Shown here piece by piece: positions 4,396 through 52,797 of a stretch of DNA of 64,000 nt. Source of the stretch: Nakamurella endophytica (lineage in GTDB: Bacteria; Actinomycetota; Actinomycetes; Mycobacteriales; Nakamurellaceae). The translations under genes and the position numbers were made by a program. Under the pieces are notes generated by a model. That model had not been told where the DNA came from. It saw only the letters and a program-made list of their open reading frames with translations, and searched no databases. Each line of letters begins with the position of its first letter. Positions within the stretch are counted from its first letter, which is position 1. The DNA is taken from assembly GCF_014646215.1 (NCBI RefSeq), contig NZ_BMNA01000002.1:366874-430873 (forward strand). Reading direction: 5' to 3'.

Positions 4396-4401
4396 TACGC
4401 T
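4396..4401 (+). promoter_or_regulatory. Candidate helD -10 element (TACGCT)
   Basis: TACGCT, identical to the -10 hexamers seen before the DUF2127 and uvrC genes, lies 34 bases before the proposed TTG start of helD. No clear -35 sequence. Confidence 0.35.
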
Positions 4402-4435
4402 TGATGGCCGCTCCGTCCTGTCGACATCCCGGGGG

Positions 4436-6736
4436 TTGATCACGCTGTCCGACCGTGACCTGAGGGAGGAACAGCAGTTCGTCAGCACGCTGTACCGGCG
4501 CCTCGACCAGATGCGCGACCAGACCACGTCGCTGCGCGACGCGTACCTGCGGGACAGCGACGGCACCCCGGGCGGCCGGGTCCAGCGCGACATCGCCTAC
4601 GCGCACCACGCGGCCACCCTGCAGTCGCTGGTGCTCGCCGAGGACCGGCTCTGCTTCGGCCGGCTCGACACGGCGGCGGGCGAGTCGGTGCACATCGGCC
4701 GGCTGGGCATCTTCGAGGAAGGGCCGGGTGACCGGCAGCTCCTGATGGACTGGCGGGCGCCTTCGGCCCGGCCGTTCTACGTCGCCACCGCCGCCGATCC
4801 GCTGGGTCTGGTGCGCCGCCGGCACCTGCGGGTGCGCCGGCGGGTCGTCGGCGCGGTGACCGACGAGTACCTGGACGTCCGCCCCGAACTGCTGGCCCGC
4901 CTGGGCGTCGAGACCGCGGACGTGGCCAGGGCGGACTCCCCGGCCGGTGAGTCGGCGCTGCTGGCCGCCCTGAACGCGCCGCGCACCGGCCGGATGGCCG
5001 ACATCGTCGAGACCATCCAGGGCGAGCAGGACGCCATCATCCGCGCCGACCGGTCCGGCGTGCTGGTCGTCCAGGGCGGTCCCGGCACGGGCAAGACCGC
5101 CGTGGCGCTGCACCGGGTGGCGTACCTGCTGTACAACCACCGGGACCAGCTGGCCAACCGCGGCGTCCTGATCATCGGGCCGAACCGGACCTTCCTGGAG
5201 TACATCGGCCAGGTGCTGCCCTCGCTCGGCGAGAACGCCGTCGTGCTGAGCACCCTCGGCGAGCTGGTGCCCGGCGTCCGCGCCGAGGCGGTCGACGAGC
5301 CGGAGGTCGCCGCCGTCAAGGGCCGTGCCCAGATGGCGGGCGTGATCGCGAACGCGGTGCTGGACCGGCAGCGCATGCCGCGGGTGCCGGTGCCGGTGCC
5401 GTCGGCGCAGGGCCGGCTCGAGCTGTCGCCGGAGCTGCTGGCCCGGGCGCAGCGGCGGGCCTGGGGCGGGCGGGCCCCGCACAACCGCGCCCGGGCCTCG
5501 TTCCTACGGGTGGTGTTCAACGACCTCGCCCGGCAGGTCGCCGCGCGGCACCGTCGCGGGCTCGGCGCGGAGCTGCCGTGGACCGCGGAGGACGCGGCGG
5601 ACACGGTGACGGCCTTGCGGGAGGACGAGGCCGTGCACCGCGCGCTCGCCCCGCTCTGGCCGCTGCTCACCCCGGCGGCGTTGCTGCGGGATCTGCTCTC
5701 CGATCCGCGGCGACTGGCGTTCGCCGCACCCGACCTGCAGGAGCGGCAGCGGGCCGCGCTGCTGCGTCCGGCGTCCGCGCCGTTCACCGTGTCCGACGTG
5801 CCGCTGCTCGACGAGGCCGCCGAGCTGCTCGGGCCGCTCCCGGCGGACCGCGGTCCCGGACCGGCCGACGACGGCGCGGCGCGGGACTACGCCGAGACCG
5901 TGCTGGACATGCTCGCCGGCGAGGAGGCGCACGAGGACGCCGAGGCCGCCGGCGACACGGCGTCCGACGGGACCGGCGGCATCGTCGACGCGGCGACCCT
6001 GCTGGCGCTGCAGGCGGACCGGGTGGCGCTGACCTCCACGGCCGAGCGGGCGGCGACCGACCGGGAGTGGACCTACGGCCACGTCGTGGTCGACGAGGCG
6101 CAGGAGCTCTCGCCGATGGCGTGGCGTGCGGTGATGCGTCGCTGCCCGCTCCGGTCGATGACCCTGGTCGGCGACACCGCGCAGGCGTCCGACCCGGCCG
6201 CCGCGCGGTCCTGGGCCAGGGCTCTCCGGCCGCACGTCGGGGACCGGTGGCGGCTGGCGGAGCTGACGGTGAACTACCGCACCCCCGGCGAGATCTCGGA
6301 CCTGGCCGAGCGGGTGCTCCGCCGGATCGACCCCGGGCTGCGGGCCCCGACCGCGGTCCGCCGGACCGGCGTCCGGCCGTGGTTCCGCCGGGTCCCGGCG
6401 GAGAAGCTCACCGCGGTGGCCGCGCAGTCGGCGGCCGAGGAGCTCGCGCAGTCCGCGGAGGGGCGGCTGGCGGTGCTGGTGCCGCCGGGTCTCCGAGCGG
6501 CCGCTGCGGCGGCCGTGGCCGCCGGCCTGGACCGGGCGGCGCGGGAGCGGGTCGACGTGCTGACCGTGGCCGAGGCCAAGGGCCTGGAGTTCGACGTGGT
6601 CCTGCTCGTCGACCCGGATGCCATCGAGCGCGGCTCGCGGCGCGGCCGCAGCGACGTCTACGTCGCGATCACCCGGGCGACGCAGCGGCTCGGCGTGCTG
6701 CACTCCGGCCCGACCCCGGCCTGGGCGGCGGACTGA
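4436..6736 (+). CDS. helD: HelD/HelR-type UvrD-like helicase, RNA polymerase recycling factor
   Basis: About 766 residues, the usual size of actinobacterial HelD. These superfamily 1 ATPases do not mainly unwind DNA; they insert arms into RNA polymerase and remove stalled enzyme from DNA, and some members protect against rifampicin. The N-terminal coiled segment (EEQQFVSTLYRRLDQMRDQ) is the secondary-channel arm. Walker A GGPGTGKTAVALHR is near residue 213, Walker B VVVDEAQELSP near 550, and motif VNYRTPGEI near 610; the C-terminus has the UvrD-type VYVAITRATQRL. The TTG at 4436 is the only in-frame start near the beginning of conserved sequence and its ribosome binding site is weak, so the start is uncertain. 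Confidence 0.85.
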   Translation: MITLSDRDLREEQQFVSTLYRRLDQMRDQTTSLRDAYLRDSDGTPGGRVQRDIAYAHHAATLQSLVLAEDRLCFGRLDTAAGESVHIGRLGIFEEGPGDRQLLMDWRAPSARPFYVATAADPLGLVRRRHLRVRRRVVGAVTDEYLDVRPELLARLGVETADVARADSPAGESALLAALNAPRTGRMADIVETIQGEQDAIIRADRSGVLVVQGGPGTGKTAVALHRVAYLLYNHRDQLANRGVLIIGPNRTFLEYIGQVLPSLGENAVVLSTLGELVPGVRAEAVDEPEVAAVKGRAQMAGVIANAVLDRQRMPRVPVPVPSAQGRLELSPELLARAQRRAWGGRAPHNRARASFLRVVFNDLARQVAARHRRGLGAELPWTAEDAADTVTALREDEAVHRALAPLWPLLTPAALLRDLLSDPRRLAFAAPDLQERQRAALLRPASAPFTVSDVPLLDEAAELLGPLPADRGPGPADDGAARDYAETVLDMLAGEEAHEDAEAAGDTASDGTGGIVDAATLLALQADRVALTSTAERAATDREWTYGHVVVDEAQELSPMAWRAVMRRCPLRSMTLVGDTAQASDPAAARSWARALRPHVGDRWRLAELTVNYRTPGEISDLAERVLRRIDPGLRAPTAVRRTGVRPWFRRVPAEKLTAVAAQSAAEELAQSAEGRLAVLVPPGLRAAAAAAVAAGLDRAARERVDVLTVAEAKGLEFDVVLLVDPDAIERGSRRGRSDVYVAITRATQRLGVLHSGPTPAWAAD

Positions 6737-6791
6737 TCCGCGGGGCCGGCCGCCGGGCGGTCGACCCGAACCGTGCAGCTCACGGTGCAGC

Positions 6792-7619
6792 TCACCGTGC
6801 GGCTCCTGTCCCGGACAGCGACCCGGGCGTCGACGTCGTGGCGCCGCCGGCCGGATCCGAGGGTGGGCCGCCCGCCGCCGCCCGCTCGACGGTCAGCAGG
6901 CTTTCCGAGCGGTGCAGCGCCTGCTGGGCCGCCGCACCGCCACGCACCCCGAAGAGCCGCTTGGAGGCGACCAGCCACACCACGACCGCCAGGTTCAGCA
7001 GGAACAGGACCACCCGGAGCGCGGTGACCCGCTCGGTCAGCTCGTACATCTCCAGCGGCAGGAACACCGCGGTGGCCACCACCGACAGGTACTCGCCCCA
7101 GCGTCGGGCCAGCCACAGACCGGCGCCCTCGACGGCCTGCAGGGCCGCGTAGGCGACCAGGCCGACGGACACCCAGACCAGCGTCGTCGGGGTGAGCGAG
7201 AAGGCGTCGTCGATCCACCGGACGATGTGCGAGTCCTGGATGTTCCAGCCGATCTGGCGGGCGAACGGCCGCAGCAACGGGAAGTCCTCGAGGAACGACC
7301 GGTGCAGGTCCGTGCGCCGGTGCCGGAACACCAGCACCAGCACGGCCAGCAGCAGCAGCCCGACGGTCCGCAGCCAGCGTTCGACGGCGATGAGCCGCAG
7401 GATCCTGCGGTCGCGCAGCGCGCGGCCGCGCGGCACCTCCGGCGCGCGATCCGCCGGGCCCTCGCCGCGCGGCGGCCCGACGACGAACGTGGCGCACCGC
7501 AGGCACCGCCAGGCCTCCCCGGCCGGCGTCCGGACGCGGACCCGCTCGCGCAGGTCCGGTTCGGTCGGCGCGTAGGTCTCGTGCCCGCGGTGGGCGCACG
7601 TCCGCAGGTCCCAGTCCAC
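6792..7619 (-). CDS. DUF2127 membrane protein with N-terminal Cys/His motif
   Basis: Protein of 275 residues. Residues about 8-50 contain CAHRGH and WRCLRCATF, a CxH...CxxC arrangement that could bind zinc. Four hydrophobic segments follow, the pattern of DUF2127, with HIVRWIDDAFSLTP between the first two and GEYLSVVATAVFLPLE and YELTERVTALRVV in the second half. The last 40 residues are low-complexity. The GTG start at 7619 has no ribosome binding site; a TACGCT hexamer ends six bases before it. Function unknown. It is convergent with helD. Confidence 0.75.
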   Translation of the reverse strand: MDWDLRTCAHRGHETYAPTEPDLRERVRVRTPAGEAWRCLRCATFVVGPPRGEGPADRAPEVPRGRALRDRRILRLIAVERWLRTVGLLLLAVLVLVFRHRRTDLHRSFLEDFPLLRPFARQIGWNIQDSHIVRWIDDAFSLTPTTLVWVSVGLVAYAALQAVEGAGLWLARRWGEYLSVVATAVFLPLEMYELTERVTALRVVLFLLNLAVVVWLVASKRLFGVRGGAAAQQALHRSESLLTVERAAAGGPPSDPAGGATTSTPGSLSGTGAAR

Positions 7620-40168: not shown

Positions 40169-41734
40169 TCAGGTGTCGTACCGCAGGGCCCGGGCCTCGA
40201 TGTCGAACAGGACGTCGTCGGCCGCGGCGGGGCTGACGTCCCCGCGCCGGCGGGCCTGCAGCACCGCCTCCCGCTCCGCCTCGGTGGCCGACGCCAGCAG
40301 GTCCCGCAATCGGTCCCCGGCGTCGTCGCCGCCGGCATCTCCGTCGACCAGATCCTCGACCTGGCGGCGGTAGTGCAGGCGGCTCTCGTACTGGTGGATG
40401 GCAGCGGCTCTCACTTCCGGTGGGACGTCGTCTGCCTGGCGCAGCCTCTTCAGAGCTGCCTCGGTGACCGCCCGGTGCAGCCGTCGGGTGTCGGCGCCTA
40501 CGTCCGCCTCGTCAGCCACCCCGAGCCGGCGGATCAGCGGGGCAAGGGTCAGCCCCTGGAGCACCAGCGTGACCAGCACCACGATCAACGCCACCGACAC
40601 CACCTCGTCGCGGGCGGGGAACGGACCGCCACCGTCGACGGTGATCGGGAGGGCCAGCGCGGTCGCCACGGTCACCACGCCGCGCATCCCCGCCCAGGAG
40701 GCCACGGTCGACTCGCGCCACCCGTACGGCGTCGCCGATCCGCTGCGCCTGGCCCGCCGGCCGACCGCCGCCGAGGCCGCGAACATCGCAGCGGCCCGCA
40801 GTCCCACCAGCACCAGCACCACGACGCCCGCCAGTTCCAGGGCACGCCCGTCGGCCAGCACGTCGGTGGACCCGAGCACGTCCGTCAGTTCCACACCCAG
40901 GAACGAGAACACCAGACCGCTCACCGCGAAATCCACGTAGCGCCACACCGAGCGCCCGAGCACCCACCCGGCCGAGGTGACCTCGCGGGACAGGGTCGAC
41001 CGCAGGAACAGTCCGGCCACCAGGACCGCCAGCACGCCGGAAGCGCCCACCGCCTCCGCAGTGAGATAGAGCGCGAAGGGGACGGCCAGGGTGACCGTGG
41101 TCTCGGGTGCGGCATCGTGCAGCAGCCCGAGCGCGCGCCGCGTCAGCCACCCCCCGGCCAGCCCCAGGGCCGCACCGCCGGCCACCGCGACCAGCAGACC
41201 GACGCCGATCTGCCCCGCCGTCACGCTGCCGACGACGACGGCCATCACCGATATCTGATACAGCACCAGCGCCGTCGCGTCGTTGAACTGACCCTCGCCC
41301 TCCAGCAGGGTCACCAGCCGCGGCGGGAGCCGCAACCGGCTGGCGACCGCCGTCGCCGCCACCGGGTCCGGGGGCGACACCACGCCGCCGAGGACGGCAG
41401 CCACCGGCCAGGACAGGCCCAGCCAGTGACCGACGACGGTGACCGCCGCGGCGGTGAGCACCGTCAGTCCCACCGCCAGACCCAGGATCGGCCTGGCCGC
41501 GCTGCGCAGCTCCCGGACGGACGCGTTCTGGGTGGCCGCGAACAGCAGCGGCGGCAGCACCAGCGGCAGGATCAGGTCGGGTTCCAGATCCGGCGCCGGC
41601 ACGAAGGGAACGACCCCCAGCACCAGCCCGTAGATGGTCAGCAGCACCGGCTGCGGCACGCCGATCCGGTCCGAGACCGGCGTGAGCACGACGATGCCCG
41701 CGACCAGCAACCCCAGCAGGATGACGGCGTGCAC
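40169..41734 (-). CDS. CPA1-type Na+/H+ antiporter (second copy, with C-terminal domain)
   Basis: Membrane protein of 521 residues. Core motifs VVSPPDPVAATAVASRL and LEGEGQFNDATALVLY, and SWAGMRGVVTVATALALP in helix 10, identify the bacterial NhaP/NhaK group. The last 120 residues form a charged cytosolic helical domain (RRLHRAVTEAALKRLRQ, YESRLHYRRQVEDLV). GTG start at 41734. It is upstream of the first copy by 47 bases, probably one transcript. The two antiporters share low visible identity, so they are not a recent duplication. Confidence 0.9.
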   Translation of the reverse strand: MHAVILLGLLVAGIVVLTPVSDRIGVPQPVLLTIYGLVLGVVPFVPAPDLEPDLILPLVLPPLLFAATQNASVRELRSAARPILGLAVGLTVLTAAAVTVVGHWLGLSWPVAAVLGGVVSPPDPVAATAVASRLRLPPRLVTLLEGEGQFNDATALVLYQISVMAVVVGSVTAGQIGVGLLVAVAGGAALGLAGGWLTRRALGLLHDAAPETTVTLAVPFALYLTAEAVGASGVLAVLVAGLFLRSTLSREVTSAGWVLGRSVWRYVDFAVSGLVFSFLGVELTDVLGSTDVLADGRALELAGVVVLVLVGLRAAAMFAASAAVGRRARRSGSATPYGWRESTVASWAGMRGVVTVATALALPITVDGGGPFPARDEVVSVALIVVLVTLVLQGLTLAPLIRRLGVADEADVGADTRRLHRAVTEAALKRLRQADDVPPEVRAAAIHQYESRLHYRRQVEDLVDGDAGGDDAGDRLRDLLASATEAEREAVLQARRRGDVSPAAADDVLFDIEARALRYDT

Positions 41735-41853
41735 CGAACCATCCTGGCCTGTCCGTCCTCGGCGCACGTCACCGGTGTCGAGGCCAGGTCCCCGGCCGGC
41801 CGCCCTGGCGGGCCATGGAACGCATCGTCCCGCCCGAGCGGCGGACCCGCCTG

Positions 41854-41878
41854 CCGGTGGGTCGCCGGCATCCACCGG
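41854..41878 (-). terminator. Hairpin after the AI-2E-type permease gene
   Basis: CCGGTGG and CCACCGG enclose an 11-base loop, 22 bases below the stop at 41900. Confidence 0.4.
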
Positions 41879-41899
41879 ATCCGGTTGACCGAGCGGGCC

Positions 41900-43027
41900 T
41901 CAGGCGTCGTCCGTCTCCTCGGCCTCCCCGGCCGTGTCCCGACCGGACGGTCCCGAGGACCGCGAGAGCTGCTCGCGCCCGTACCGCCAGAACACGGCGA
42001 CGACAGCCGCGACGGGAACCGCCAGCAGGGCACCGACGACACCGGCTCGGTTGCCGCCGACCACGACGGCCAGCAACACGATCGCCGGATGCAGCCGCAG
42101 GCTCCTGCCCTGCAGGATCGGCTGCCACACGTTGCCCTCGAGTTGCTGCACCAGCACGATAACGCCGAGCACGATCAGCGCGTCGGTCAGACCGTTGCTC
42201 ACCAGGGCGATGAGCACCGCGACGGCGCCCGCGACGAACGCCCCGACCACCGGCACGAACGCCCCCAGGAAGGTCAGCACCGCCAGCGGCAGCACCAGCG
42301 GCACGCCGACGACGAGCAAACCGATGGCGATGCCGACCGCATCGGCCAGCCCGACCAGGGCCTGCGACCGCATGAACGCGCCCAGCGCGTCGTAGCAGCG
42401 ACGGCCGAGCTCGGCCACGTGCGGGCCGGCGCGTCCGCCCAGCTGACGGCCGAGCCAGGGCAGGAAGGCCGGTCCGTCCTTGAGCATGAAGAAGGTCAGC
42501 ACGACCGCCATGGCGATCGTCACCAGGCCGGTACCCAGGACGCCGACGCCGCTCAGGACCGTACCCAGGATCTCGCCGGTGCTGCTCTGCAGCTGGCCGA
42601 TCGCCGCGTCGACCGCCGAGCCGAGCTGGTCGGAACCGAGATTGAACGGCGGACCCCTGAGCCACTGCCGCACGGTGTCGACGCCACTGGAGACGCCCGT
42701 GGCCACTTCGGTGGCCTGGCCTGCGACCGGTAGTACGACCACGACCACCAGCCCGGCGACCAGCAGCACCGTGCCGGCCGTGACCACGGCCGCGACCAGC
42801 AGCGGTGGCCATCCGTGCCGCCGCAGGAACCGCGCCAGCGGCCAGACCAGAGTGCTGACCAGCAGGGCGAGGCACACGGGCAGCACGGCGACCCACATCC
42901 AGCCCAGCAGCCACCAGACGACCGCCAGGCCGGCGACCACCACGAGGCAGTACGCCGACACCACCGCCGAGGCGCGGAGAGCCGACAGCACACGCGTGCC
43001 GGACGAGGAGGCTCGCGGATGGGACAC
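41900..43027 (-). CDS. AI-2E (PF01594) family transporter
   Basis: Membrane protein of 375 residues with about eight helices in the TqsA/YdiK/YhhQ-like pattern: two helix pairs, an exported stretch (FNLGSDQLGSAVDAAIGQLQ), TFFMLKDGPAFLPWLGRQL, and the highly conserved FLGAFVPVVGAFVAGAVAVLIAL. Homologues export autoinducer-2 or exchange Na+/Li+ for protons; the antiporter neighbours favour the latter. The GTG at 43027 begins the protein after an unrelated Pro/Arg-rich open stretch. Divergent from marR. Confidence 0.88.
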   Translation of the reverse strand: MSHPRASSSGTRVLSALRASAVVSAYCLVVVAGLAVVWWLLGWMWVAVLPVCLALLVSTLVWPLARFLRRHGWPPLLVAAVVTAGTVLLVAGLVVVVVLPVAGQATEVATGVSSGVDTVRQWLRGPPFNLGSDQLGSAVDAAIGQLQSSTGEILGTVLSGVGVLGTGLVTIAMAVVLTFFMLKDGPAFLPWLGRQLGGRAGPHVAELGRRCYDALGAFMRSQALVGLADAVGIAIGLLVVGVPLVLPLAVLTFLGAFVPVVGAFVAGAVAVLIALVSNGLTDALIVLGVIVLVQQLEGNVWQPILQGRSLRLHPAIVLLAVVVGGNRAGVVGALLAVPVAAVVAVFWRYGREQLSRSSGPSGRDTAGEAEETDDA

Positions 43028-43167
43028 GTGCGGTCCTCTCGGCGTCGCGGGCGAAGTGGGTCGGTGCCGATGGCGGCGCCGCGCCGGCCCGACCGGGATC
43101 GTCCATGGTGGCACCCCGCCGGACCTGACCGTCCCCGGGGCCGATCCGAACCAGCCCGCCGTGTCGC

Positions 43168-43181
43168 TTGCATCGACGCAA
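43168..43181. promoter_or_regulatory. Candidate MarR operator TTGCATCGACGCAA
   Basis: Fourteen-base near-palindrome with core TTGC-N6-GCAA, one symmetric pair mismatched, in the region between the AI-2E-type permease and marR. MarR-family proteins commonly bind TTGC/GCAA half-sites with this spacing. The same core occurs at 45937-45950. Confidence 0.45.
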
Positions 43182-43328
43182 CTGCACGGTCACCATGCCC
43201 GGGTGTCGCGCTCCCGTACATCCGGACGTCCCGAGCGCCGGTCGACCGGCAGCGCGCCTTCCGCCCCGGACGACGTGGCGCACGCCCGGATCCGACCTCG
43301 CCGCCGGGTGGTGCCGCAGCCGGCAACC

Positions 43329-43865
43329 GTGCAGCGGACGGTTCGGGACACCCTGCGCGACGATCGCACCGCACCGGAGCCGGTGGCGGCGGATCAGGTG
43401 GACGCGGTGCTGGCTGCCTCCCGGGTCCTGGTCGCGGTCAGTGCCCGATCGCTGTCCGTCGCGGAGGACCGGGTCACGGTGGGTCAGTTCCGCGTGATGG
43501 TCATCGTCGAAAGTCGTGGACCGATCGGGGTCAATGCCCTGGCGGAGGCCATGGGGGTGCACCCGTCCAACGCGACCCGGGGATGTGACCGGCTCGTCGC
43601 GGCGGGGCTGCTGGACCGCCGCGAGAACCGGGAGGACCGGCGGCAGCTGGTCCTGGCGCTGACAGCGGCCGGACGTGCGCTGCTGCACGAGGTCATGTCC
43701 GTGCGGCGGGCGGCCGTCGCCGAGACCCTGCTCAGGATGCCGGCGAACGAGCGGGCACGCGTGGCCTGTGCCCTCGCGGCCTTCGCCGCCGCCGGCGGGG
43801 AACCGGATCCGGCGGATCTGTGGCGGGTGGGTTGGACCACCGCAACGGTCGACGATGCCACCTGA
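43329..43865 (+). CDS. MarR-family transcriptional regulator
   Basis: About 178 residues with a winged helix-turn-helix: VTVGQFRVMVIVESRGPIGV, NALAEAMGVHPSNATRGCDRLVA as the recognition helix, and the wing LLDRRENREDRRQLVLALTAAG. The DR-x-DRR wing motif is typical of MarR proteins, which usually repress stress or efflux genes until a ligand or oxidant binds. The start is uncertain: GTG codons at 43203, 43308 and 43329 are in frame and none has a strong ribosome binding site. It is divergent from the AI-2E-type permease, its most likely target along with itself. Confidence 0.85.
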   Translation: MQRTVRDTLRDDRTAPEPVAADQVDAVLAASRVLVAVSARSLSVAEDRVTVGQFRVMVIVESRGPIGVNALAEAMGVHPSNATRGCDRLVAAGLLDRRENREDRRQLVLALTAAGRALLHEVMSVRRAAVAETLLRMPANERARVACALAAFAAAGGEPDPADLWRVGWTTATVDDAT

Positions 43866-44133
43866 CCAGGGTGATCGCGTCGCCGGACCGTGGACCGGGG
43901 TCGCGGTCCCCGACGGCCTACTTCTACGACATCCGGTGTGGCCGGGGCCGACCGGCGGCCGGACGGATGCGGGCGTCCGGGACGAACCCTCCCCGCGGAG
44001 TCACGATCAGGACACGATCCCGCCCCGTCCCGGTCGCGCGGTTGCGGGCTCCGGACCGGACGGGTCTGCTGGAGGTCGACCGGCTGCCCAACGGGTTGCG
44101 ACGTGAGTGCCCCGTCCTGGAAGACGAACTGCC

Positions 44134-44415
44134 ATGGCTGACCATCCGCACGTGCCTCGACCCGTGGTGCCGACGTCCGTTCCGCGGACACCGCTGTGCG
44201 ACCGTCCCGGTCTCCCGCAGAGCGTGCGCGGGACGGTGCACCGGCTCTCGCGGGAACTGCCCGTCGACCGGCGCACCATCCGGTCCGTGGCTCTGCACTG
44301 CCACACCGACCTGACCAGTGGCAACGCACCACCGGCGGCACTGGACGAGCTCGTCGAGCGGCTCGCGCGGCTCCGCCTGACGGATGCGTTGCGAGGGCGC
44401 CCGAATCAGCGTTGA
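44134..44415 (+). CDS. Small hypothetical protein, possibly three-helix-bundle type
   Basis: Frame of 93 codons, not firmly recognised. The C-terminal two thirds (SVRGTVHRLSRELPVDRRTI, LDELVERLARLRLTDAL) can form amphipathic helices resembling the small three-helix dimerization proteins common in Actinobacteria. The ATG has only a weak GGAAGA upstream. The 268 bases before it, back to marR, hold nothing else that I can recognise. Confidence 0.4.
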   Translation: MADHPHVPRPVVPTSVPRTPLCDRPGLPQSVRGTVHRLSRELPVDRRTIRSVALHCHTDLTSGNAPPAALDELVERLARLRLTDALRGRPNQR

Positions 44416-44448
44416 ACCGCCGCGGATCCCGGCGGGTCGCCGCTCGGC

Positions 44449-45816
44449 TCACCTCGACGGCGGGCCGTACCAGCGGCCGGTCGTCGCCTGTTCCACGTCC
44501 CGTCCGTGCGCGTCGAGCTGGCGCAGCTCCGCCGCGTCGAAGTCCTGCGCCCGCACCGTCGCCCGGACCCGGGCGAGCTGATCGGCGACGGCCACCTGTG
44601 AGTCCGGGGTCTGGGCGGACCAGGCGACCTCACGCAGCAGCTGGAGCAGTCGCGCAAGGACGGTGGGGTCCGCCGCCCCGTAGCGCCGGACCGGGGTGAC
44701 AGCCGCGTCGAGGACCTCCTCGAACGTCGGCACCGTACGGAGCAGTCGCACCCGGCCGCTGTCGTCGCGGCCGACGTGGTCCTGGTGGGGCCGGCGCGCC
44801 GCTCGGCACAGCAGCGCCGACGTGTACCCGAGGGTGTGCACGGCGGTCGTCGGGTCGTTCACGCCCGGCGACAGCGCCCGCACCGTGACATCGGTGAGCT
44901 GGCGCAGGCCGAAGGTCCAGTCCTGGGCGTCGGTGCGCTCCACGCCGACGGTCACCAGGCGCGAGAGCGACCGCGCCAGGTCGGACACCGCCTCTCGGTC
45001 GCCCACCGTCGGGCGGCAGACCCGACCGATCGGGGTGCCGGCCACCACGAAGGCGCCGGGCGACCGGTCGATGACCACGACGGCCTCGGCCTTGACGGCC
45101 CGGTCGACCAGCGCCGCGTGGTCGACGGCCGTCACGAACCCCGATCCCGACGCCAGGATGGGAACGGCATCCTGCAGTGGTCCGGCGAGCTCGCCGGGCG
45201 CGAGCGGCCGGTCCTCGCCGTCCGGCCGGTTGTCGGGCACCAGCCGGTCGATCGCCGCGGACGCATCCGCTCCCACGTTCCTGACCATCGTCTCGAGTCG
45301 GATCTCCCGGGCCAGGTGGGCGAGGAACACGACCAGGACGACGACGCTGCCGACGGCGAGCACGAAGCCGACCGTCACCGAGATCTGCGGGACGAACAGT
45401 GGTTGGTCGTCGTCCGGGCTCCGCACGGTCCGCAGGACCGTGAGGGCGTAGGCGAACGTGGCCAGGAACACCCCCAGGGTCACGTGCACCAGACGGTCGC
45501 GAGTGAAGGTGCGCAGCAGCCTCGGCGAGTACTGGCCGCTGGCCAGCTGCAACGTGACCACGGTCAGCGAGAAGGTGAGCGAGGTGACGGTGATCAGGGA
45601 GCTGGCGATGGCGTCGAGCAGCGTCCGGGCCGCGGACGCGCCGCCGCCGAACAGGACGTCGGTGACGGCGCCGGGCAGTCGGTCGTCGATCGCGCGGTCG
45701 AGCTCGGGCAGCAACACCCCGGCCACGAGCGCCAGAACCACGGCTGCCGTCGGCACGGGCCACAGCTGGGTGCGCAACGAGTCCCGGACGGTCGTCAAGC
45801 GTCTCTGCACGGTCAT
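44449..45816 (-). CDS. DUF2254 integral membrane protein
   Basis: Protein of 455 residues with four N-terminal helices and a soluble C-terminal half. Family motifs SSLITVTSLTFSLTVVTLQL, ASGQYSPRLLRTFTRDR and LGVFLATFAYALTVLRTVR are complete, as are RALSPGVNDPTTAV and DWTFGLRQLTDV. Function unknown; it may be channel-like. The ATG at 45816 is used rather than the longer reading to 45945, which is Arg-rich and would run into the palindrome at 45937. Divergent from the ThDP enzyme gene. Confidence 0.87.
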   Translation of the reverse strand: MTVQRRLTTVRDSLRTQLWPVPTAAVVLALVAGVLLPELDRAIDDRLPGAVTDVLFGGGASAARTLLDAIASSLITVTSLTFSLTVVTLQLASGQYSPRLLRTFTRDRLVHVTLGVFLATFAYALTVLRTVRSPDDDQPLFVPQISVTVGFVLAVGSVVVLVVFLAHLAREIRLETMVRNVGADASAAIDRLVPDNRPDGEDRPLAPGELAGPLQDAVPILASGSGFVTAVDHAALVDRAVKAEAVVVIDRSPGAFVVAGTPIGRVCRPTVGDREAVSDLARSLSRLVTVGVERTDAQDWTFGLRQLTDVTVRALSPGVNDPTTAVHTLGYTSALLCRAARRPHQDHVGRDDSGRVRLLRTVPTFEEVLDAAVTPVRRYGAADPTVLARLLQLLREVAWSAQTPDSQVAVADQLARVRATVRAQDFDAAELRQLDAHGRDVEQATTGRWYGPPSR

Positions 45817-45936
45817 CGGGCCACTGTTCCGCATGCGGACCCACGGATCCATTCCGGCACGGGCCGCCGCGCCCCTCCTCCTCCGCTGCTCCCCATCGCG
45901 GATCGTCGACCTCCCGCCCACTCGTCGTGATCTTGG

Positions 45937-45950
45937 TTGCCACATGGCAA
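45937..45950. promoter_or_regulatory. Candidate operator TTGCCACATGGCAA
   Basis: Inverted repeat TTGCCA-CA-TGGCAA in the 218-base divergent region between the DUF2254 gene and the PoxB-like gene. It shares the TTGC-N6-GCAA core with the palindrome by marR. Confidence 0.5.
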
Positions 45951-46034
45951 AGAATGCGGCGCAGCAACGATGAATGACCGCGATCCCGGTGGGAACCGGA
46001 CACGCATCCGGCGGGTCCAGGAGAGGGGTATGCG

Positions 46035-47831
46035 ATGGCTGACACGGTCGGCGACGTCCTGCTGGCGCGGCTGCGCGAGTGGGGCGTCGAGCAGGTCTTC
46101 GGGTATCCGGGAGACGGCATCAACGGACTGCTCGCGGCCTGGGCGCGGGCGGACAACAAGCCGCAGTTCGTCCAGGCCCGGCACGAGGAGATGGCGGCCT
46201 TCGAGGCCGTCGGGTACGCCAAGTTCTCCGGCAGGGTCGCCGTCTGCACGGCGACGAGCGGGCCGGGTGCCATCCACCTGCTCAACGGGCTGTACGACGC
46301 CAAGCTCGACCACGTCCCGGTCGTCGCCATCGTCGGCCAGACCGAACGCACCGCCCTGGGCGGCTCGTACCAGCAGGAGGTCGACCTGCAGAGCTTGTTC
46401 AAGGACGTCTGCAGCGAGTACGTCCAGACCTGTGTGGTACCGCAACAGCTGCCCAACCTGATCGATCGGGCGATCCGCATCGCCGAGGCGGAGCGCACGC
46501 CGACCTGCATCATCTTCCCGTCGGACGTGTTCACGCTGGAGTACGAGGCCCCGGAGCACGCGTTCAAGCAGGTGCCGTCGTCGGCGACGAGCACGGCGTG
46601 GCCGGTGGTGCGGCCGCCGGAGGACGCCCTGCGGGCAGCCGCCGACCTGCTGAACGCGGGCTCCAAGGTCGCCATGCTCGTCGGCCAGGGCGCGCGGGGG
46701 TGCCTGACGGAGCTGTCCGAGGTGGCCGAGCTGCTGGGGGCGGGCGCGGCGAAGGCGTTGCTGGGCAAGGACGTGCTGCCGGACACCCTGCCCTGGGTGA
46801 CGGGGTCCATCGGCCTGCTGGGCACCAAGGCCAGCTACGACCTGATCATGGACTGCGATACCCTGCTGACGGTGGGGTCGAACTTCCCGTACACGCAGTT
46901 CATGCCCAAGCTGGACCAGGCCCGCGCCGTGCAGATCGACATCGACGGCAAGTTCATCGGCATGCGATACCCGTACGAGTTGAACCTGGTCGGCGACGCG
47001 AAGGCGACCCTGCAGGCCTTGATCCCGCTGTTGACCCGCAAGGCCGACCGCTCGTGGCGGGACACCGTCGAGGCCAACGTCGCCCGGTGGTGGGAAATCG
47101 CCGAACGGCAGGCGATGACCGGTGCCGACCCGATCAACCCCATGCGGATCTTCTGGGAGCTGTCCGAGCGGCTGCCCGACAATGCCGTCGTGGCCGCCGA
47201 TTCCGGCAGCGCCGCGAACTGGTACGCCCGCCACCTGAAGTTCCGCGGCAGCGTCCGCGGGTCGCTCTCGGGGACGCTGGCCACCATGGGACCTGCCGTG
47301 CCCTACGCGATCGGCGCCAAGTGGGCGCATCCCGCGCGGCCCAGCATCGCCCTCACCGGCGACGGCGCGATGCAGATGAACGGCCTGGCGGAGCTGATCA
47401 CCGTGCGGCACTACTGGCAGCAGTGGGCGGATCCCCGCCTGATCGTCATGGTGATGCACAACGACGACCTGAACCAGGTCACCTGGGAGATGCGGGCGAT
47501 GTCCGGATCGCCGAAGTTCAGCGAGTCTCAGACCCTCCCCGACGTGGACTACGCCGCCTTCGCCCGGGGGCTCGGCCTCAACGGGCTGAACATCGACGAC
47601 CCAGACGATCTCGGGTCCGCGTGGGACAGAGCGCTGGCCGCCGACCGGCCCACGGTGCTGGACGTCCGCTGCGATCCGGACGTCCCGCCGATCCCGCCGC
47701 ACGCCTCCTTCGAGCAGGCGACGTCCACCCTCAGCGCGCTGGTGCACGGCGACGAGAACGCCTGGGGGTTCGTCAAGCAGGGCGTGAAGCAGAAGGCGCA
47801 GGAGTTCCTGCCCGGGACCAAGAAGAGTTGA
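46035..47831 (+). CDS. PoxB-like thiamine diphosphate enzyme (pyruvate oxidase/acetolactate synthase family)
   Basis: Protein of 598 residues with the three ThDP-enzyme domains. VFGYPGDGINGLLAAW and the activating Glu in ARHEEMAAFEAVGYAK form the PYR domain; GDGAMQMNGLAELITV (near residue 441) through MHNDDLNQVTW is the metal-ThDP motif. The domain order and C-terminal tail (AWGFVKQGVKQKAQEFLPG), basic and amphipathic, resemble pyruvate:quinone oxidase PoxB, whose tail binds membrane. Such an enzyme would turn pyruvate into acetate plus CO2 and feed electrons to quinone; the substrate is inferred. ATG after GGAGAGG. Confidence 0.8.
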   Translation: MADTVGDVLLARLREWGVEQVFGYPGDGINGLLAAWARADNKPQFVQARHEEMAAFEAVGYAKFSGRVAVCTATSGPGAIHLLNGLYDAKLDHVPVVAIVGQTERTALGGSYQQEVDLQSLFKDVCSEYVQTCVVPQQLPNLIDRAIRIAEAERTPTCIIFPSDVFTLEYEAPEHAFKQVPSSATSTAWPVVRPPEDALRAAADLLNAGSKVAMLVGQGARGCLTELSEVAELLGAGAAKALLGKDVLPDTLPWVTGSIGLLGTKASYDLIMDCDTLLTVGSNFPYTQFMPKLDQARAVQIDIDGKFIGMRYPYELNLVGDAKATLQALIPLLTRKADRSWRDTVEANVARWWEIAERQAMTGADPINPMRIFWELSERLPDNAVVAADSGSAANWYARHLKFRGSVRGSLSGTLATMGPAVPYAIGAKWAHPARPSIALTGDGAMQMNGLAELITVRHYWQQWADPRLIVMVMHNDDLNQVTWEMRAMSGSPKFSESQTLPDVDYAAFARGLGLNGLNIDDPDDLGSAWDRALAADRPTVLDVRCDPDVPPIPPHASFEQATSTLSALVHGDENAWGFVKQGVKQKAQEFLPGTKKS

Positions 47832-47917
47832 CGGACGGATGGCGCGGTCGGGGTCGCGGACCGCGAGCCCGGCAGCGACATCTCGGAGTCGATCTGATCG
47901 AAGGAGGCGCCCCGGCA

Positions 47918-48454
47918 ATGGATGCGGGCACCGGAACGACGAAACTCGTGCCGCTGCTGCTCGAGCAGCACGCCCTGATCCGGGCGCTGCTGCAGTCGGT
48001 CGGCGTCGACAGCGGCTGCGGTCGGCAACAGGCGTTCGCCGATCTGTGCCGGTTGCTGGCCGTCCACGAGGCGGCCGAGGAGGAGGCGGTCCATCCGACT
48101 GCACGACACGTGGTGGGTGACACCGTGGAACAGCGGATCGCCGAGGAGAGCCACGCCGCCCAGGCCATCACCGACCTCGAGTCGATCGACGTCGGGTCGG
48201 CGGAGTTCGACCGGCGGTTCGCCGAGTTGCGGGACGCGGTGGAGCGCCATGCCGCCCAGGAGGAGGACCAGGAGTTCCCCCACCTCGCGGCCGTCGACGA
48301 CGTGACCGTCCTGACACGGCTCGAGGCGGTACTGCGCGTTGCGGCGCGGTGGGCGACCACGGAATCCGACATGGACTTCGCGCCGTTCACCGAGCAGCTG
48401 GCTCACTACCGGCAGCGCTTTCGCCAGCTCGTCGACCCGCACGGTGCTGGTTGA
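47918..48454 (+). CDS. Hemerythrin-domain protein
   Basis: Protein of 178 residues, four-helix bundle. Di-iron ligands are visible as LLEQHALIRALL, LLAVHEAAEEEAVHP (HxxxE), EESHAAQAITDLE and VERHAAQEEDQEFPHL. Family members sense or carry oxygen, nitric oxide or iron; function here is probably in oxidative or nitrosative stress. AAGGAGG lies ten bases before the ATG. It follows the ThDP enzyme by 86 bases in the same direction. Confidence 0.87.
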   Translation: MDAGTGTTKLVPLLLEQHALIRALLQSVGVDSGCGRQQAFADLCRLLAVHEAAEEEAVHPTARHVVGDTVEQRIAEESHAAQAITDLESIDVGSAEFDRRFAELRDAVERHAAQEEDQEFPHLAAVDDVTVLTRLEAVLRVAARWATTESDMDFAPFTEQLAHYRQRFRQLVDPHGAG

Positions 48455-48565
48455 CGTGCGGATCCGGCGGCGTCCTGCGGTCGGTCCGCCCTCCGGCGGC
48501 AGCTCGCTGTCCACAGAGTCGCCGACCACTGCCCCGCCCTCGTCCCGCACCGTTCGGAGGTCCTC

Positions 48566-51500
48566 GTGAGCACCACATCCCTTCCCGAGCCGGTCGTCCG
48601 GTCCGCGCGGTCCGCCGCAGCGGTCGACGTCGCAGCTCTGGAGGCCGCACTGCGGTCCCGGGTGGACGGAGAGGTCCGCTTCGACGCCGGTTCCCGTGGC
48701 GCCTACTCCACGGATGCGTCGAATTTCCGGCAGGTGCCGATCGGTGTGGTGGTGCCCCGGTCCGTCGACGCGGCCGTGGAAGCCGTGGCGGTGTGCCGGG
48801 ACCACGATGCACCGGTGCTGTCCCGCGGCGGGGGAACGAGTCTGGCCGGTGAGTGCTGCAACACGGCGGTTGTCCTCGACTTCTCGAAGTACTGCGACCG
48901 ACTGCTGTCGGTCGATGTCGAGCAGCGCACCTGCGTGGTGGAGCCGGGCATCGTGCTGGACGTGCTGAACCGGCAGCTGGCCGAGCACGGTCTGCGGTAC
49001 GGGCCCGAGCCTGCGACCCACTACAACTGCACGATCGGCGGCATGATCGGCAACAACTCGTGCGGCGCCACGGCGCAGCGCGCCGGCAAGGTCGTCGACA
49101 ACCTGGTCCGGCTGGAGGTGCTGCTCTACGACGGCACCCGGTTCTGGTGCGGGACCACGGACGACGACGAGTACGCCCGCATCGCCGCCGGGACGGACCG
49201 GCAGGCGGAGGTCTACCGGCAACTGCGGGCGCTCCGGGACACCTACCTGGCGCAGATCCGCACCCGGTACCCGCACATCCCGCGGCGGGTCTCCGGCTAC
49301 AACCTGGACTCGCTGCTGCCCGAGCACGGCTTCGACGTGGCCGGTGCTCTGGTGGGCAGCGAGTCGACGCTCGTCACCGTCCTGCGCGCCGAGCTGACCT
49401 TGATCCCGGTGCTGGCGCACCGGTCGCTGGTCGTGCTCGGGTATCCGTCCGTGGACAAGGCCGCCGACGCCGTCCCGGCGATCCTGCCGCACCGGCCCAT
49501 CGCACTGGAGGGGCTGGACGACAAGTTGATCGGGTTCGAACGCCGCAAGGGCATGAACTCGCAGGCCCTCGACCTGCTGCCGGACGGGTCGGGCTGGCTC
49601 ATGGTGCAGTTCGGTGCGGACAGCCAGGAGGAGGTGAACCGGGCCGGACACGACCTGCTGGAGGCGTTGGCCGGCACCGAGCACGAGCCGCAGCACCAGT
49701 TCTTCGACGACCCGGACCGGGAGCGGGAGTTGTGGACCGTCCGGGAGTCCGGGCTCGGTGCCACCGCGCATGTGCCCGGAGCCGCGGAGACCTGGCCCGG
49801 GTGGGAAGATTCCGCGGTGTCGCCGGATCGGCTCGGCGACTACCTGCGCGACCTGAATGCGCTCTACGTGGAGTTCGGGTACACCCAGGCCAGCGTCTAC
49901 GGGCACTTCGGGCAGGGGTGCGTGCACACCCGCATCCCGTTCGCCCTGCGGGACGAGGCCGGCGTGCACCAGTACCGGCGGTTCCTCGAGCGTGCCGCGG
50001 ATCTGGTCGTCGCCTACGGCGGGAGCTTCTCCGGCGAGCACGGCGACGGTCAGCAGCGCGGCGAGCTGCTCCCCCGCATGTTCGGCGACGAGATCATGCG
50101 CGCTTTCGGCCAGTTCAAGGCCGTGTTCGATCCCGGGGACCGGATGAACCCCGGCAAGGTGGTGGCGCCGCACCGGCTGGACGAGGACCTGCGCATCGGA
50201 CCGTCGTGGACGCCCCGCGAGCCGGCCGGTCTGCACTTCGCCTACCCCCGGGAGGGGGGATCGTTCGTCAAGGCCACCAACCGGTGCGTCGGGGTCGGCA
50301 AGTGCCGGCAGCACGCCAGCGATGGCGGCACGGTCATGTGCCCGTCGTTCCAAGTGCTGCACGAGGAGGAGCACGCGACGCGCGGGCGGGCCCGGCTGCT
50401 GTTCGAGATGCTCGACGGCCACGGCGACGGGCCGGTGACCGACGGCTGGCGGTCGCAGGAAGTGTTCGACGCCCTCGACCTGTGCCTGTCCTGCAAGGGG
50501 TGCAAGAAGGACTGCCCCGTCGGCGTCGACATGGCCACCTACAAAGCCGAGTTCCTGTCACACTTCTGGAAGGGCCGGCTGCGTCCGCGGTCGGACTACG
50601 CGATGGGCTACCTGCCGGTGCTCGCCGGGACGGTCACGCGCCTGCGACTCGGCCCGGTGGTGAACGCGCTGAGCCATGCTCCCGGCCTGCGCCGGGTGGC
50701 CACGGCCGTCGCCGGCGTGGCGGACCGGGAGATCCCGCTGTTCGCCGCCGAGTCCTTCCAGCAGTGGTTCTCAGCCCGCGCACCGCAGGGCACGGGCGAG
50801 CGCGGCACCGTGCTGCTGTGGCCGGATTCATTCACCAACAACTTCCACCCGCACGTCGGCCGCGCCGCCGTCGAGGTGCTCGAATCGGCCGGCTGGCGGG
50901 TCGTCGTGCCCGCCGAACCGGTCTGCTGCGGTCTGACCTGGATCTCCACCGGTCAGCTCGAGGTCGCCAAGAAGGTGCTCGGTCGCACGGTGCGACTGCT
51001 CGCCGACCACGTCCGTGGCGGGGGGAAGGTGGTCGGTCTGGAGCCGAGCTGCACCGCCGTGTTCCGGTCCGACATGTCGGAGCTGTTCCCGGACGACCTG
51101 GACGCCCGACGCCTGGCGGGAGCTGTCGTAACCTTCGGCGAGTTGCTGGCCGACCACTCCCCCGGCTGGGAACCGCCGCAGCTGGCCGCGGACGCGATGG
51201 TGCAGGTGCACTGCCATCAGCACGCCGTCCTGGGCAACGGACCGGACATGGAATTGATGCGGCGGATGGGGATGCGGCCGGACCACCTGGACTCCGGCTG
51301 CTGTGGACTGGCCGGGAACTTCGGATTCCAGCCCGGGCACCTGGATGTCAGCCGGGACTGTGCCGAACGGGTTCTGATGCCGGCAATCCGCGGTGCCGAC
51401 GACGAGACGCTGGTGCTGGCCGACGGTTTCAGCTGCCGCACGCAGATCCACCAGATGGACGGCAACGGACGCGAGGGTCTGCACCTGGCCGAGGTCGTCC

Positions 51501-51709
51501 GGGCAGCGCTGGCCGGCAACGATTCGCCCATCCGTCGACCCGAGAAGGCCTGGGCGCAGCGGCCAGTCGAGCCGGGACCGCTCCGCAGTGCCGCCGCGCT
51601 CGCCGGCGCCGGCGCCGGCGCAGCGGTGCTGCTCGCTGCGGCTGGTGTGGGGATCCGCGCCGCCGGGCGGGCGGTCCTGCGCCGCTCGGCCGGACGGATC
51701 CGGCGATGA
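48566..51709 (+). CDS. FAD-linked oxidase/Fe-S oxidoreductase fusion with C-terminal membrane segment
   Basis: Protein of 1047 residues joining a GlcD-type FAD domain to a GlpC-type Fe-S domain, as in D-lactate or D-2-hydroxyglutarate dehydrogenases. FAD-binding motif LSRGGGTSLAGECCN is near residue 95, NCTIGGMIGNNSCGA near 155, and FSGEHGDGQQRGELL near 490. Cluster cysteines: NRCVGVGKCR...VMCPSF near 575 and CLSCKGCKKDCP near 640; CCG-type motifs VCCGLTW near 787 and SGCCGLAGNFGF near 912. Residues 1007-1033 form a hydrophobic helix followed by an Arg-rich end, an unusual tail anchor. It overlaps the next gene by four bases. The substrate is probably a 2-hydroxy acid. Confidence 0.85.
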   Translation: MSTTSLPEPVVRSARSAAAVDVAALEAALRSRVDGEVRFDAGSRGAYSTDASNFRQVPIGVVVPRSVDAAVEAVAVCRDHDAPVLSRGGGTSLAGECCNTAVVLDFSKYCDRLLSVDVEQRTCVVEPGIVLDVLNRQLAEHGLRYGPEPATHYNCTIGGMIGNNSCGATAQRAGKVVDNLVRLEVLLYDGTRFWCGTTDDDEYARIAAGTDRQAEVYRQLRALRDTYLAQIRTRYPHIPRRVSGYNLDSLLPEHGFDVAGALVGSESTLVTVLRAELTLIPVLAHRSLVVLGYPSVDKAADAVPAILPHRPIALEGLDDKLIGFERRKGMNSQALDLLPDGSGWLMVQFGADSQEEVNRAGHDLLEALAGTEHEPQHQFFDDPDRERELWTVRESGLGATAHVPGAAETWPGWEDSAVSPDRLGDYLRDLNALYVEFGYTQASVYGHFGQGCVHTRIPFALRDEAGVHQYRRFLERAADLVVAYGGSFSGEHGDGQQRGELLPRMFGDEIMRAFGQFKAVFDPGDRMNPGKVVAPHRLDEDLRIGPSWTPREPAGLHFAYPREGGSFVKATNRCVGVGKCRQHASDGGTVMCPSFQVLHEEEHATRGRARLLFEMLDGHGDGPVTDGWRSQEVFDALDLCLSCKGCKKDCPVGVDMATYKAEFLSHFWKGRLRPRSDYAMGYLPVLAGTVTRLRLGPVVNALSHAPGLRRVATAVAGVADREIPLFAAESFQQWFSARAPQGTGERGTVLLWPDSFTNNFHPHVGRAAVEVLESAGWRVVVPAEPVCCGLTWISTGQLEVAKKVLGRTVRLLADHVRGGGKVVGLEPSCTAVFRSDMSELFPDDLDARRLAGAVVTFGELLADHSPGWEPPQLAADAMVQVHCHQHAVLGNGPDMELMRRMGMRPDHLDSGCCGLAGNFGFQPGHLDVSRDCAERVLMPAIRGADDETLVLADGFSCRTQIHQMDGNGREGLHLAEVVRAALAGNDSPIRRPEKAWAQRPVEPGPLRSAAALAGAGAGAAVLLAAAGVGIRAAGRAVLRRSAGRIRR

Positions 51710-52797
51710 CGCTCGAACCCGTCTCGGCCGTCGAGACGGCCGTCTACCGGTTCCCGACCCCCTACCCGGAGGCCGACGGAACCATCGAGTGGGACGCCAC
51801 CACCGCCGTCGTCGTGCGCGTCCGCGCCGGCGACCACACCGGAGTGGGCTACACGTACAGCACCGCCGCCGCGGCGGGCGTGGTGGCCGACCATCTCGCC
51901 GACGTGGTGTGCGGGCAGGATGCGGGCGACGTCACCGCCTGCTGGAGCGCCATGCGCCGCGCGTGCCGCAACCTCGGCACCCGGGGACTCGTCGGCCAGG
52001 CGATCAGTGCCGTGGACGTCGCCCTGTGGGATCTCAAGTCCCGGCTCCTCGGCGTCCCGCTGTCCGTGCTGCTCGGGCGCTGCCGGGACACCGTGCCGGT
52101 TTACGGTTCCGGCGGATTCACCACGCAGGACGACGCCCAGCTCGCCGCCCAGGTGGCCGGCTGGACCGACGCCGGCTGCACCGCCGTGAAGATCAAGATC
52201 GGCGAGTCGTGGGGTTCCCGGGTCGACCGCGACCTGGCGCGGGTGGACCGGCTGCGGGAGCTCGTCGGCCCGGGCGTGCAGATCATGGTCGACGCGAACG
52301 GCGGCTACACCGTCGGCCAGGCGCGCCGGGTCGGGGCCGCGCTGGACGACCGCGGCGTCGTCTGGTTCGAGGAGCCGGTGAGCAGCGACGACGTCGCCGG
52401 CCTGGCCCTGCTCCGCGCCTGCCTGCGTGCGGACGTCGCCGCCGGCGAGTACGCGGCGGACGTCGTCGACGCCGCGCGGCTGTGCCCGGCGGTGGACTGC
52501 CTGCAACTGGACGCCACCCGCTGCGGTGGCTACACCGGGTTCCTGGCCGGCGCCGCCGTGGCGGCGAGCGCCGAACTGCAGGTCTCGGCGCACTGTGCGC
52601 CCAGCCTGCACGCTCCCGTCGCCGCCGCCGTGCCCAACCTCCGGCACGTCGAGTGGTTCGCCGACCACGCCCGCCTGGAGCCGCAGCTGTTCGACGGGAC
52701 ACCCTCGGTCCACGGGGGCCAGCTGTCCGTGCCCGGCGGCCAACCGGGCAGCGGCCTCACCCTCAGCGGCCGGTGCGAGCCGCGGCGCCGCACCTGA
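51706..52797 (+). CDS. Enolase-superfamily dehydratase/racemase (mandelate racemase group)
   Basis: Protein of 363 residues. The capping domain is followed by the barrel with KxK base in AVKIKIGES, metal ligands in IMVDANGGYTVG, VWFEEPVS and AAGEYA, and the His/Asp partner in LQLDATRCGGYTGF plus SAHCAPSLHAPV. Having both the Lys and the His bases places it in the mandelate racemase subgroup, which contains sugar-acid dehydratases and racemases. It is co-translated with the flavoprotein, so its product or substrate is probably a hydroxy acid used by that enzyme; identity unknown. Confidence 0.85.
   Translation: MTLEPVSAVETAVYRFPTPYPEADGTIEWDATTAVVVRVRAGDHTGVGYTYSTAAAAGVVADHLADVVCGQDAGDVTACWSAMRRACRNLGTRGLVGQAISAVDVALWDLKSRLLGVPLSVLLGRCRDTVPVYGSGGFTTQDDAQLAAQVAGWTDAGCTAVKIKIGESWGSRVDRDLARVDRLRELVGPGVQIMVDANGGYTVGQARRVGAALDDRGVVWFEEPVSSDDVAGLALLRACLRADVAAGEYAADVVDAARLCPAVDCLQLDATRCGGYTGFLAGAAVAASAELQVSAHCAPSLHAPVAAAVPNLRHVEWFADHARLEPQLFDGTPSVHGGQLSVPGGQPGSGLTLSGRCEPRRRT

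Follow-up and report, generated by a model that had tools for sequence, protein, structure and literature searches.

MarR of Escherichia coli is a repressor of the MarR family that regulates its own gene, and its operator, marO, has half-sites of the TTGC/GCAA type. The spacing of the half-sites in marO is shorter than the N6 described here, where three or four half-sites are spaced 6-3-6 and the targets are different. In MarR systems with divergent promoters, the operator lies between the regulator gene and the divergent target genes.

The nearest relative of known structure of the MarR protein studied here is Rv1404 of Mycobacterium tuberculosis (PDB entry 2nyx; phmmer 1.4e-29, profile 4.9e-59). 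In the available parts of the two sources, Rv1404 is reported to act on the methyltransferase gene Rv1405c and to function in acid adaptation (PMC5526998), and the target gene directly adjoins Rv1404 (PMC5648196); in contrast, the targets predicted below are poxB, SDR and GH15 genes. No Rv1404 operator was seen in the available parts of PMC5526998, PMC6536590, PMC13002591 and PMC5648196. Six spellings of the motif were without occurrence in the literature searched, which covers subscription papers thinly. Among the matches listed, a search for the half-site wording gave nothing to the point by title, and the combination of PoxB-like, SDR, GH15, GMC and dehydratase genes was not found as a MarR regulon.

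Here, we describe two palindromes in a 64-kb stretch of the Nakamurella endophytica genome (the window). The original prediction placed a permease gene, marR, a DUF2254 gene and a redox operon in one MarR regulon on the basis of a shared TTGC-N6-GCAA core.

Methods

The search for relatives of the window MarR covered 61 genomes plus named genomes (33 loci). Upstream DNA was compared in 53 regions from other genomes, each consisting of the 300 bp upstream of a MarR match; these regions are not independent, L083, L084 and L088 being from one strain. The weak homologues L064-L073 and locus L113 stand outside the 53, and the MarR tree, rooted at its midpoint, omits L111 and L112 as too short.

A profile (R1) was built from 32 operators of other genomes. 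Of 34 distinct exact operators, L108:7285 and L179:4382 were excluded by judgement, and operators without a recognised gene (L083, L084:4799, L088:5353, L099:4908, L102:4918, L182 and L183) were retained. Consensus sigma-70 promoters and terminators were scanned for at 42900-46100 and Rfam families at 41000-49000; neither scan gave a match.

Results

Site 1, TTGCATCGACGCAA (43168-43181), and the core of site 2, TTGCCACATGGCAA (45937-45950), are the only exact TTGC-N6-GCAA palindromes in the window, with the letters and positions originally given. Shuffled windows held 0.21 on average, and one in 100 reached two. Both sites, to which no strand is assigned, lie between divergent genes, and Pfam and NCBIfam confirmed the families named in the prediction. 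Site 1 separates an AI-2E family permease ORF (41900-43114, minus strand; Pfam AI-2E_transport, 1.6e-55) from marR (43203-43865, plus strand; Pfam MarR, 2.6e-14). Site 2 separates the gene of a DUF2254 membrane protein (44449-45852, minus strand, start by a simple gene caller; Pfam DUF2254, 4.3e-117) from that of a PoxB-like ThDP enzyme, here termed poxB (46035-47831, plus strand; NCBIfam NF006129, thiamine pyrophosphate-requiring protein, 1000.7 bits, cut-off 724). The latter is the first gene of a predicted operon that continues on the plus strand with a hemerythrin HHE domain protein (47918-48454; Pfam Hemerythrin, 3.7e-10), an FAD/4Fe-4S oxidoreductase of the YdiJ/GlcD type (48566-51709; Pfam FAD-oxidase_C, 2.2e-46; best NCBIfam model YdiJ, 442.5 bits, under the cut-off of 1350) and an enolase-superfamily sugar-acid dehydratase-like protein of the MR_MLE type (51706-52797; best NCBIfam model L-talarate/galactarate dehydratase, 2.6e-62, under cut-off). 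A 102-aa ORF at 44107-44415, between marR and the DUF2254 gene, is without a Pfam or NCBIfam match. Elsewhere in the genome, G000:C1:711218-711550 matches the PoxB-like protein over residues 488-598 with 67% identity and may be a partial second copy.

The two sites differ in completeness. Site 1 consists of the inner TTGC-N6-GCAA only, without the outer GCAA (third) half-site; it is the predicted operator of marR and is common to the divergent permease gene. Site 2 in full (45937-45967) has four half-sites, TTGC-N6-GCAA-N3-aTGC-N6-GCAA, and we predict it to be the operator of the poxB operon and perhaps of the DUF2254 gene as well. It has 15 of the 16 half-site bases of the 31-bp four-half-site pattern and one mismatch to GCAA-N3-TTGC-N6-GCAA in each direction.

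The window MarR has a winged-helix domain (PF01047, 53.3 bits, cut-off 24.6; PF12802, 44.2 bits, cut-off 27). None of the 12 listed NCBIfam models for named MarR equivalogs (MprA, HpaR, MarR, OhrR, SlyA and others) was reached at cut-off, the best being MprA with 38.1 bits against 157. The MarR of locus L049, which by eye is very like Rv1404, has no exact element upstream; in the tree, from which Rv1404 itself is absent, the 37-row group with the window MarR (support 98/98) excludes it.

Upstream of related marR genes, GCAA-N3-TTGC was present in 29 of the 53 regions, TTGC-N6-GCAA in 23 and TTGC-N5-GCAA in eight; any other two-half-site spacing tried (0-12) was present in at most five. The half-sites also occur jointly, as GCAA-N3-TTGC-N6-GCAA in 16 regions and in the N3-N5 form in seven. 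The palindromic core is therefore part of a longer operator: TTGC-N6-GCAA is a portion of it, but as an operator definition it was too narrow, the full form being GCAA-N3-TTGC-N6-GCAA, with a consensus near CGCAATnATTGCGnnnnCGCAA from 34 distinct exact copies. Both paralogues of our genome and 36 of the 53 related marR genes have such a predicted operator in their own promoter region. By best form, the 36 comprise 16 full N3-N6, six full N3-N5, seven N6-only and seven N3-only elements (shuffled means 0.01, 0, 0.2 and 0.26, respectively). Among the 17 regions without an element by these classes, one (L061) has TTGC-N5-GCAA alone. No exact element was found within 320 bp at the weak homologues L064-L069. 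The N5 variant, with TTGC-N5-GCAA beside GCAA-N3-TTGC, is seen at L048, L050, L053, L054, L055 and L058, mostly with more distant MarR relatives.

The exact 21-bp operator was found in 50 of the 298 genomes of the order, and its reversed control in 38. There are 11 exact operators in the genus, six upstream of marR and one upstream of an SDR gene; four (L177, L178, L186 and L187) are without a recognised regulon gene beside them. The four-half-site N6-N3-N6 form occurs exactly in two other genomes, between divergent called genes (L180:4623-4653 and L181:4828-4858). On one side, the operator in L180 is flanked by the gene of a weak homologue of MarR (36%). Further exact three-half-site operators, with no regulon gene recognised, lie roughly 0.4-0.9 kb downstream from the marR match (L084:4799, L088:5353, L099:4908 and L102:4918) and may mark extra targets.

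The distance from the element to the gene is also conserved. An in-frame start codon lies 21-23 bp past TTGC-N6-GCAA in 20 of the 23 regions from other genomes, including all 16 with the full form, although several of the 20 loci offer a further in-frame start; the exceptions are L086, L096 and L097. This spacing was found in just two of the seven regions with TTGC-N5-GCAA but without TTGC-N6-GCAA, and the second marR of our genome (marR2, see below) also deviates. Since the spacing is conserved and an in-frame GTG stands 21 bp past the end of site 1, this GTG (43203) is proposed as the start of marR, in which later in-frame GTGs are present. With TTGCNN taken as a -35 box, NANNNT follows at a distance of 17 bases in 14 of 32 loci and of 18 bases in nine; no other spacing between 13 and 21 is seen in more than one. 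From this pattern and the start spacing, marR appears to have a leaderless mRNA whose promoter overlaps the operator.

The prediction had proposed a genome-wide scan for the bare motif, which gave a divided answer. TTGC-N6-GCAA has 13 places in the 4.94-Mb genome, where the reversed pattern has 57 and about 16 are expected from the shuffle rate of the window. Eight of the 13 are inside called genes, one of these being a weak 64-aa call of the simple gene caller. The motif is thus not enriched, yet of the five places that are intergenic, three correspond to site 1, site 2 and the upstream region of marR2. Likewise, the reversed control outnumbers the bare motif in 16 of 17 genomes of the genus.

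The product of marR2 is closely paralogous to the window MarR, with 66% identity over 160 residues; the next homologue listed in the genome has 34% identity. The palindrome in front of it (C2:272421) belongs to the single exact match of the 21-bp operator in our genome. Four further places match it with one mismatch: site 2, read either way, accounts for two of them, and the remaining two fall within called genes. No place in the genome fits the 31-bp four-half-site form better than site 2, which has one mismatch of 16; eight places have three or fewer, the other seven, among them the marR2 upstream region, all having three, and the reversed control has seven. marR2 (L190:6415-7134, equal to G000:C2:272414-273133) heads an SDR-123 aa-GH15 operon with the exact operator in front. 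A GTG lies 22 bases past this operator, out of frame, so that the start is further downstream or the 5' end is disturbed; the first in-frame start is 111 bases past the operator.

With profile R1, the marR2 upstream site was the only match listed for our genome (E 0.0015), where 150 of 426 first-look candidates were scored. In the window, sites 1 and 2 are the sole matches with E <=10 (E 0.97 to 2.1), which adds little because both are the sole exact occurrences of TTGC-N6-GCAA, an element contained in the model. Matches at E <=1 were obtained in 10 of 17 genomes of the genus; at the matches of G010, G016, G011, G007, G005 and G015, no regulon gene was recognised among the places looked at.

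In relatives, the operator adjoins the same kinds of gene. Two genomes (G001 and G002) have poxB and marR in divergent orientation with the operator between them, and SDR and GH15 genes follow marR. The operator also separates poxB from marR in G026 (N3-N5 element) and in Pseudonocardia L090 (N6 element). Four loci (L094, L100, L103 and L105) have an s150-G2DH3-GMC-poxB run across the operator from marR. L179 has two operators between GH15-SDR and poxB-MR_MLE-YdiJ and a third at marR; it shares poxB, YdiJ and MR_MLE (a 52% relative of the window protein, within the poxB gene run) with the window operon, in which the order differs and the hemerythrin gene is added. Elements lie immediately upstream of GH15 in L094, L100 and L101 and of SDR in L101, L103, L104, L105 and L174. 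In L174 (G002), genes of an FAD-binding monooxygenase-like protein and a pyridine-nucleotide-disulphide oxidoreductase (4398-7011) lie between the operator-bearing SDR-GH15 pair and a third marR.

Over 48 loci, 39 of 68 merged elements had a regulon gene no more than 300 bp downstream and 29 did not. This figure is biased, because 16 of the loci (L174-L189) had been retrieved by way of operator or marR matches. For loci fetched by the MarR protein alone (L081-L112) the figure was 27 of 42. At 14 poxB loci without such a marR alongside (L017-L028, L030 and L031), no exact three-half-site element was present; their one TTGC-N6-GCAA falls within poxB itself, in L026. L017 has a MarR with 36% identity near poxB. 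None of the 50 other loci in the comparison has the window gene order marR, ORF, DUF2254, poxB.

Discussion

The palindromes are very probably operators of the local MarR repressor for its own gene and for the poxB sugar/redox-enzyme genes, as judged from sequence comparison. A single MarR regulon spanning marR, the poxB operon and the distant marR2-SDR-GH15 operon is likewise well supported by the comparison of loci. The single regulon originally proposed is supported for marR and the poxB operon, since the element recurs at related marR genes and between marR and poxB, or the poxB run, in relatives. It does not extend to its other two members in the same way: the AI-2E permease had no match in the 50 other loci, and an element within 500 bp upstream of DUF2254 was found in none of 11 other homologues (11 of 13 other matches, L225 and L228 being left out; L226 is the second copy of our own genome). 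Both genes are counted as candidate members solely because they share sites 1 and 2, through which they may respond. In the other direction the proposed extent was too small, as a second marR with an SDR-GH15 operon lies elsewhere in the genome.

We consider it likely that these sites are operators of a distinct actinobacterial MarR subfamily that represses marR, the poxB operon and the marR2 operon. The TTGC/GCAA half-sites would be bound by a dimer of MarR or, where the site is longer, by two adjacent dimers; N3 is constant and N5/N6 vary, and either pair of half-sites may be that of one dimer. At marR genes the half-sites would overlap the promoter, which bound MarR would cover. Through site 1 MarR would repress marR itself, through site 2 the poxB-hemerythrin-YdiJ-dehydratase operon and through the site at C2:272.4 kb the marR2-SDR-small protein-GH15 operon. 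A ligand, perhaps a sugar acid, an aldehyde or a redox signal, would release MarR. By the names of its families, the target set suggests the oxidation of a sugar or sugar acid.

That the two palindromes stand close together by accident would agree with the 13 places in the genome, a number near the window shuffle rate. However, sites 1 and 2 and a third copy are at genes where relatives carry the operator, and site 2, with 15 of 16 half-site bases, is the best in the genome. The spacing counts, the shuffles, the 31-bp ranking and the start-codon distance have already largely refuted chance, which we regard as highly improbable. The conserved TTGC might instead be mainly a -35 element of the marR promoter rather than an operator, as the spacer of 17 (14/32) or 18 (9/32) to NANNNT and the fixed distance to the start codon would suggest. 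A -35 element, however, would leave unexplained the inverted GCAA half-sites, the third half-site and the presence of the same element, at different distances, in front of SDR, GH15 and poxB. We give this account very little probability. The two readings can hold together, with the operator overlapping the -35 element.

A further possibility is that another transcription factor binds the elements and that marR is merely one target. This would accommodate the 29 of 68 merged elements and the four of 11 exact genus operators that stand beside no recognised regulon gene, as well as the poor clustering of single operator classes on the MarR tree, on which shuffles were as low in 20/500 cases for FULL36, 82/500 for FULL35 and 500/500 for N6only and N3only. 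On the other hand, the element tracks this MarR type and keeps a fixed distance to marR in many genera. The single exact operators of G001 and of G012 are both at marR, and the three-half-site form is absent from all 14 poxB loci without such a marR alongside. Taken jointly, the operator labels require 25 changes on the tree against a shuffled mean of 30.8, a value reached by none of 200 shuffles, near-copies contributing. We therefore regard a different factor as unlikely, if somewhat less so than chance or a -35 element, and favour MarR itself as the protein that would bind these sites.

The analysis gives a concrete operator and regulon for a type of MarR of which no description was found elsewhere. 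It also illustrates that a bare motif count can mislead: there is no genome-wide enrichment, yet the sites are very probably real. More tentatively, and with somewhat less than even confidence, we suggest an uncharacterised actinobacterial MarR subfamily with an unreported interleaved 6-3-6 operator, on which two dimers would share or abut half-sites, coordinating a sugar-oxidation module (GH15 glucosidase, SDR, GMC dehydrogenase, sugar-acid dehydratase, PoxB-like ThDP enzyme and YdiJ-type oxidase) across several families of Actinomycetota. The predicted regulon links several enzymes that are little understood (the PoxB-like PRK08273 type, MR_MLE, SDR, GH15 and GMC proteins) into one controlled module and could reveal its substrate and ligand.
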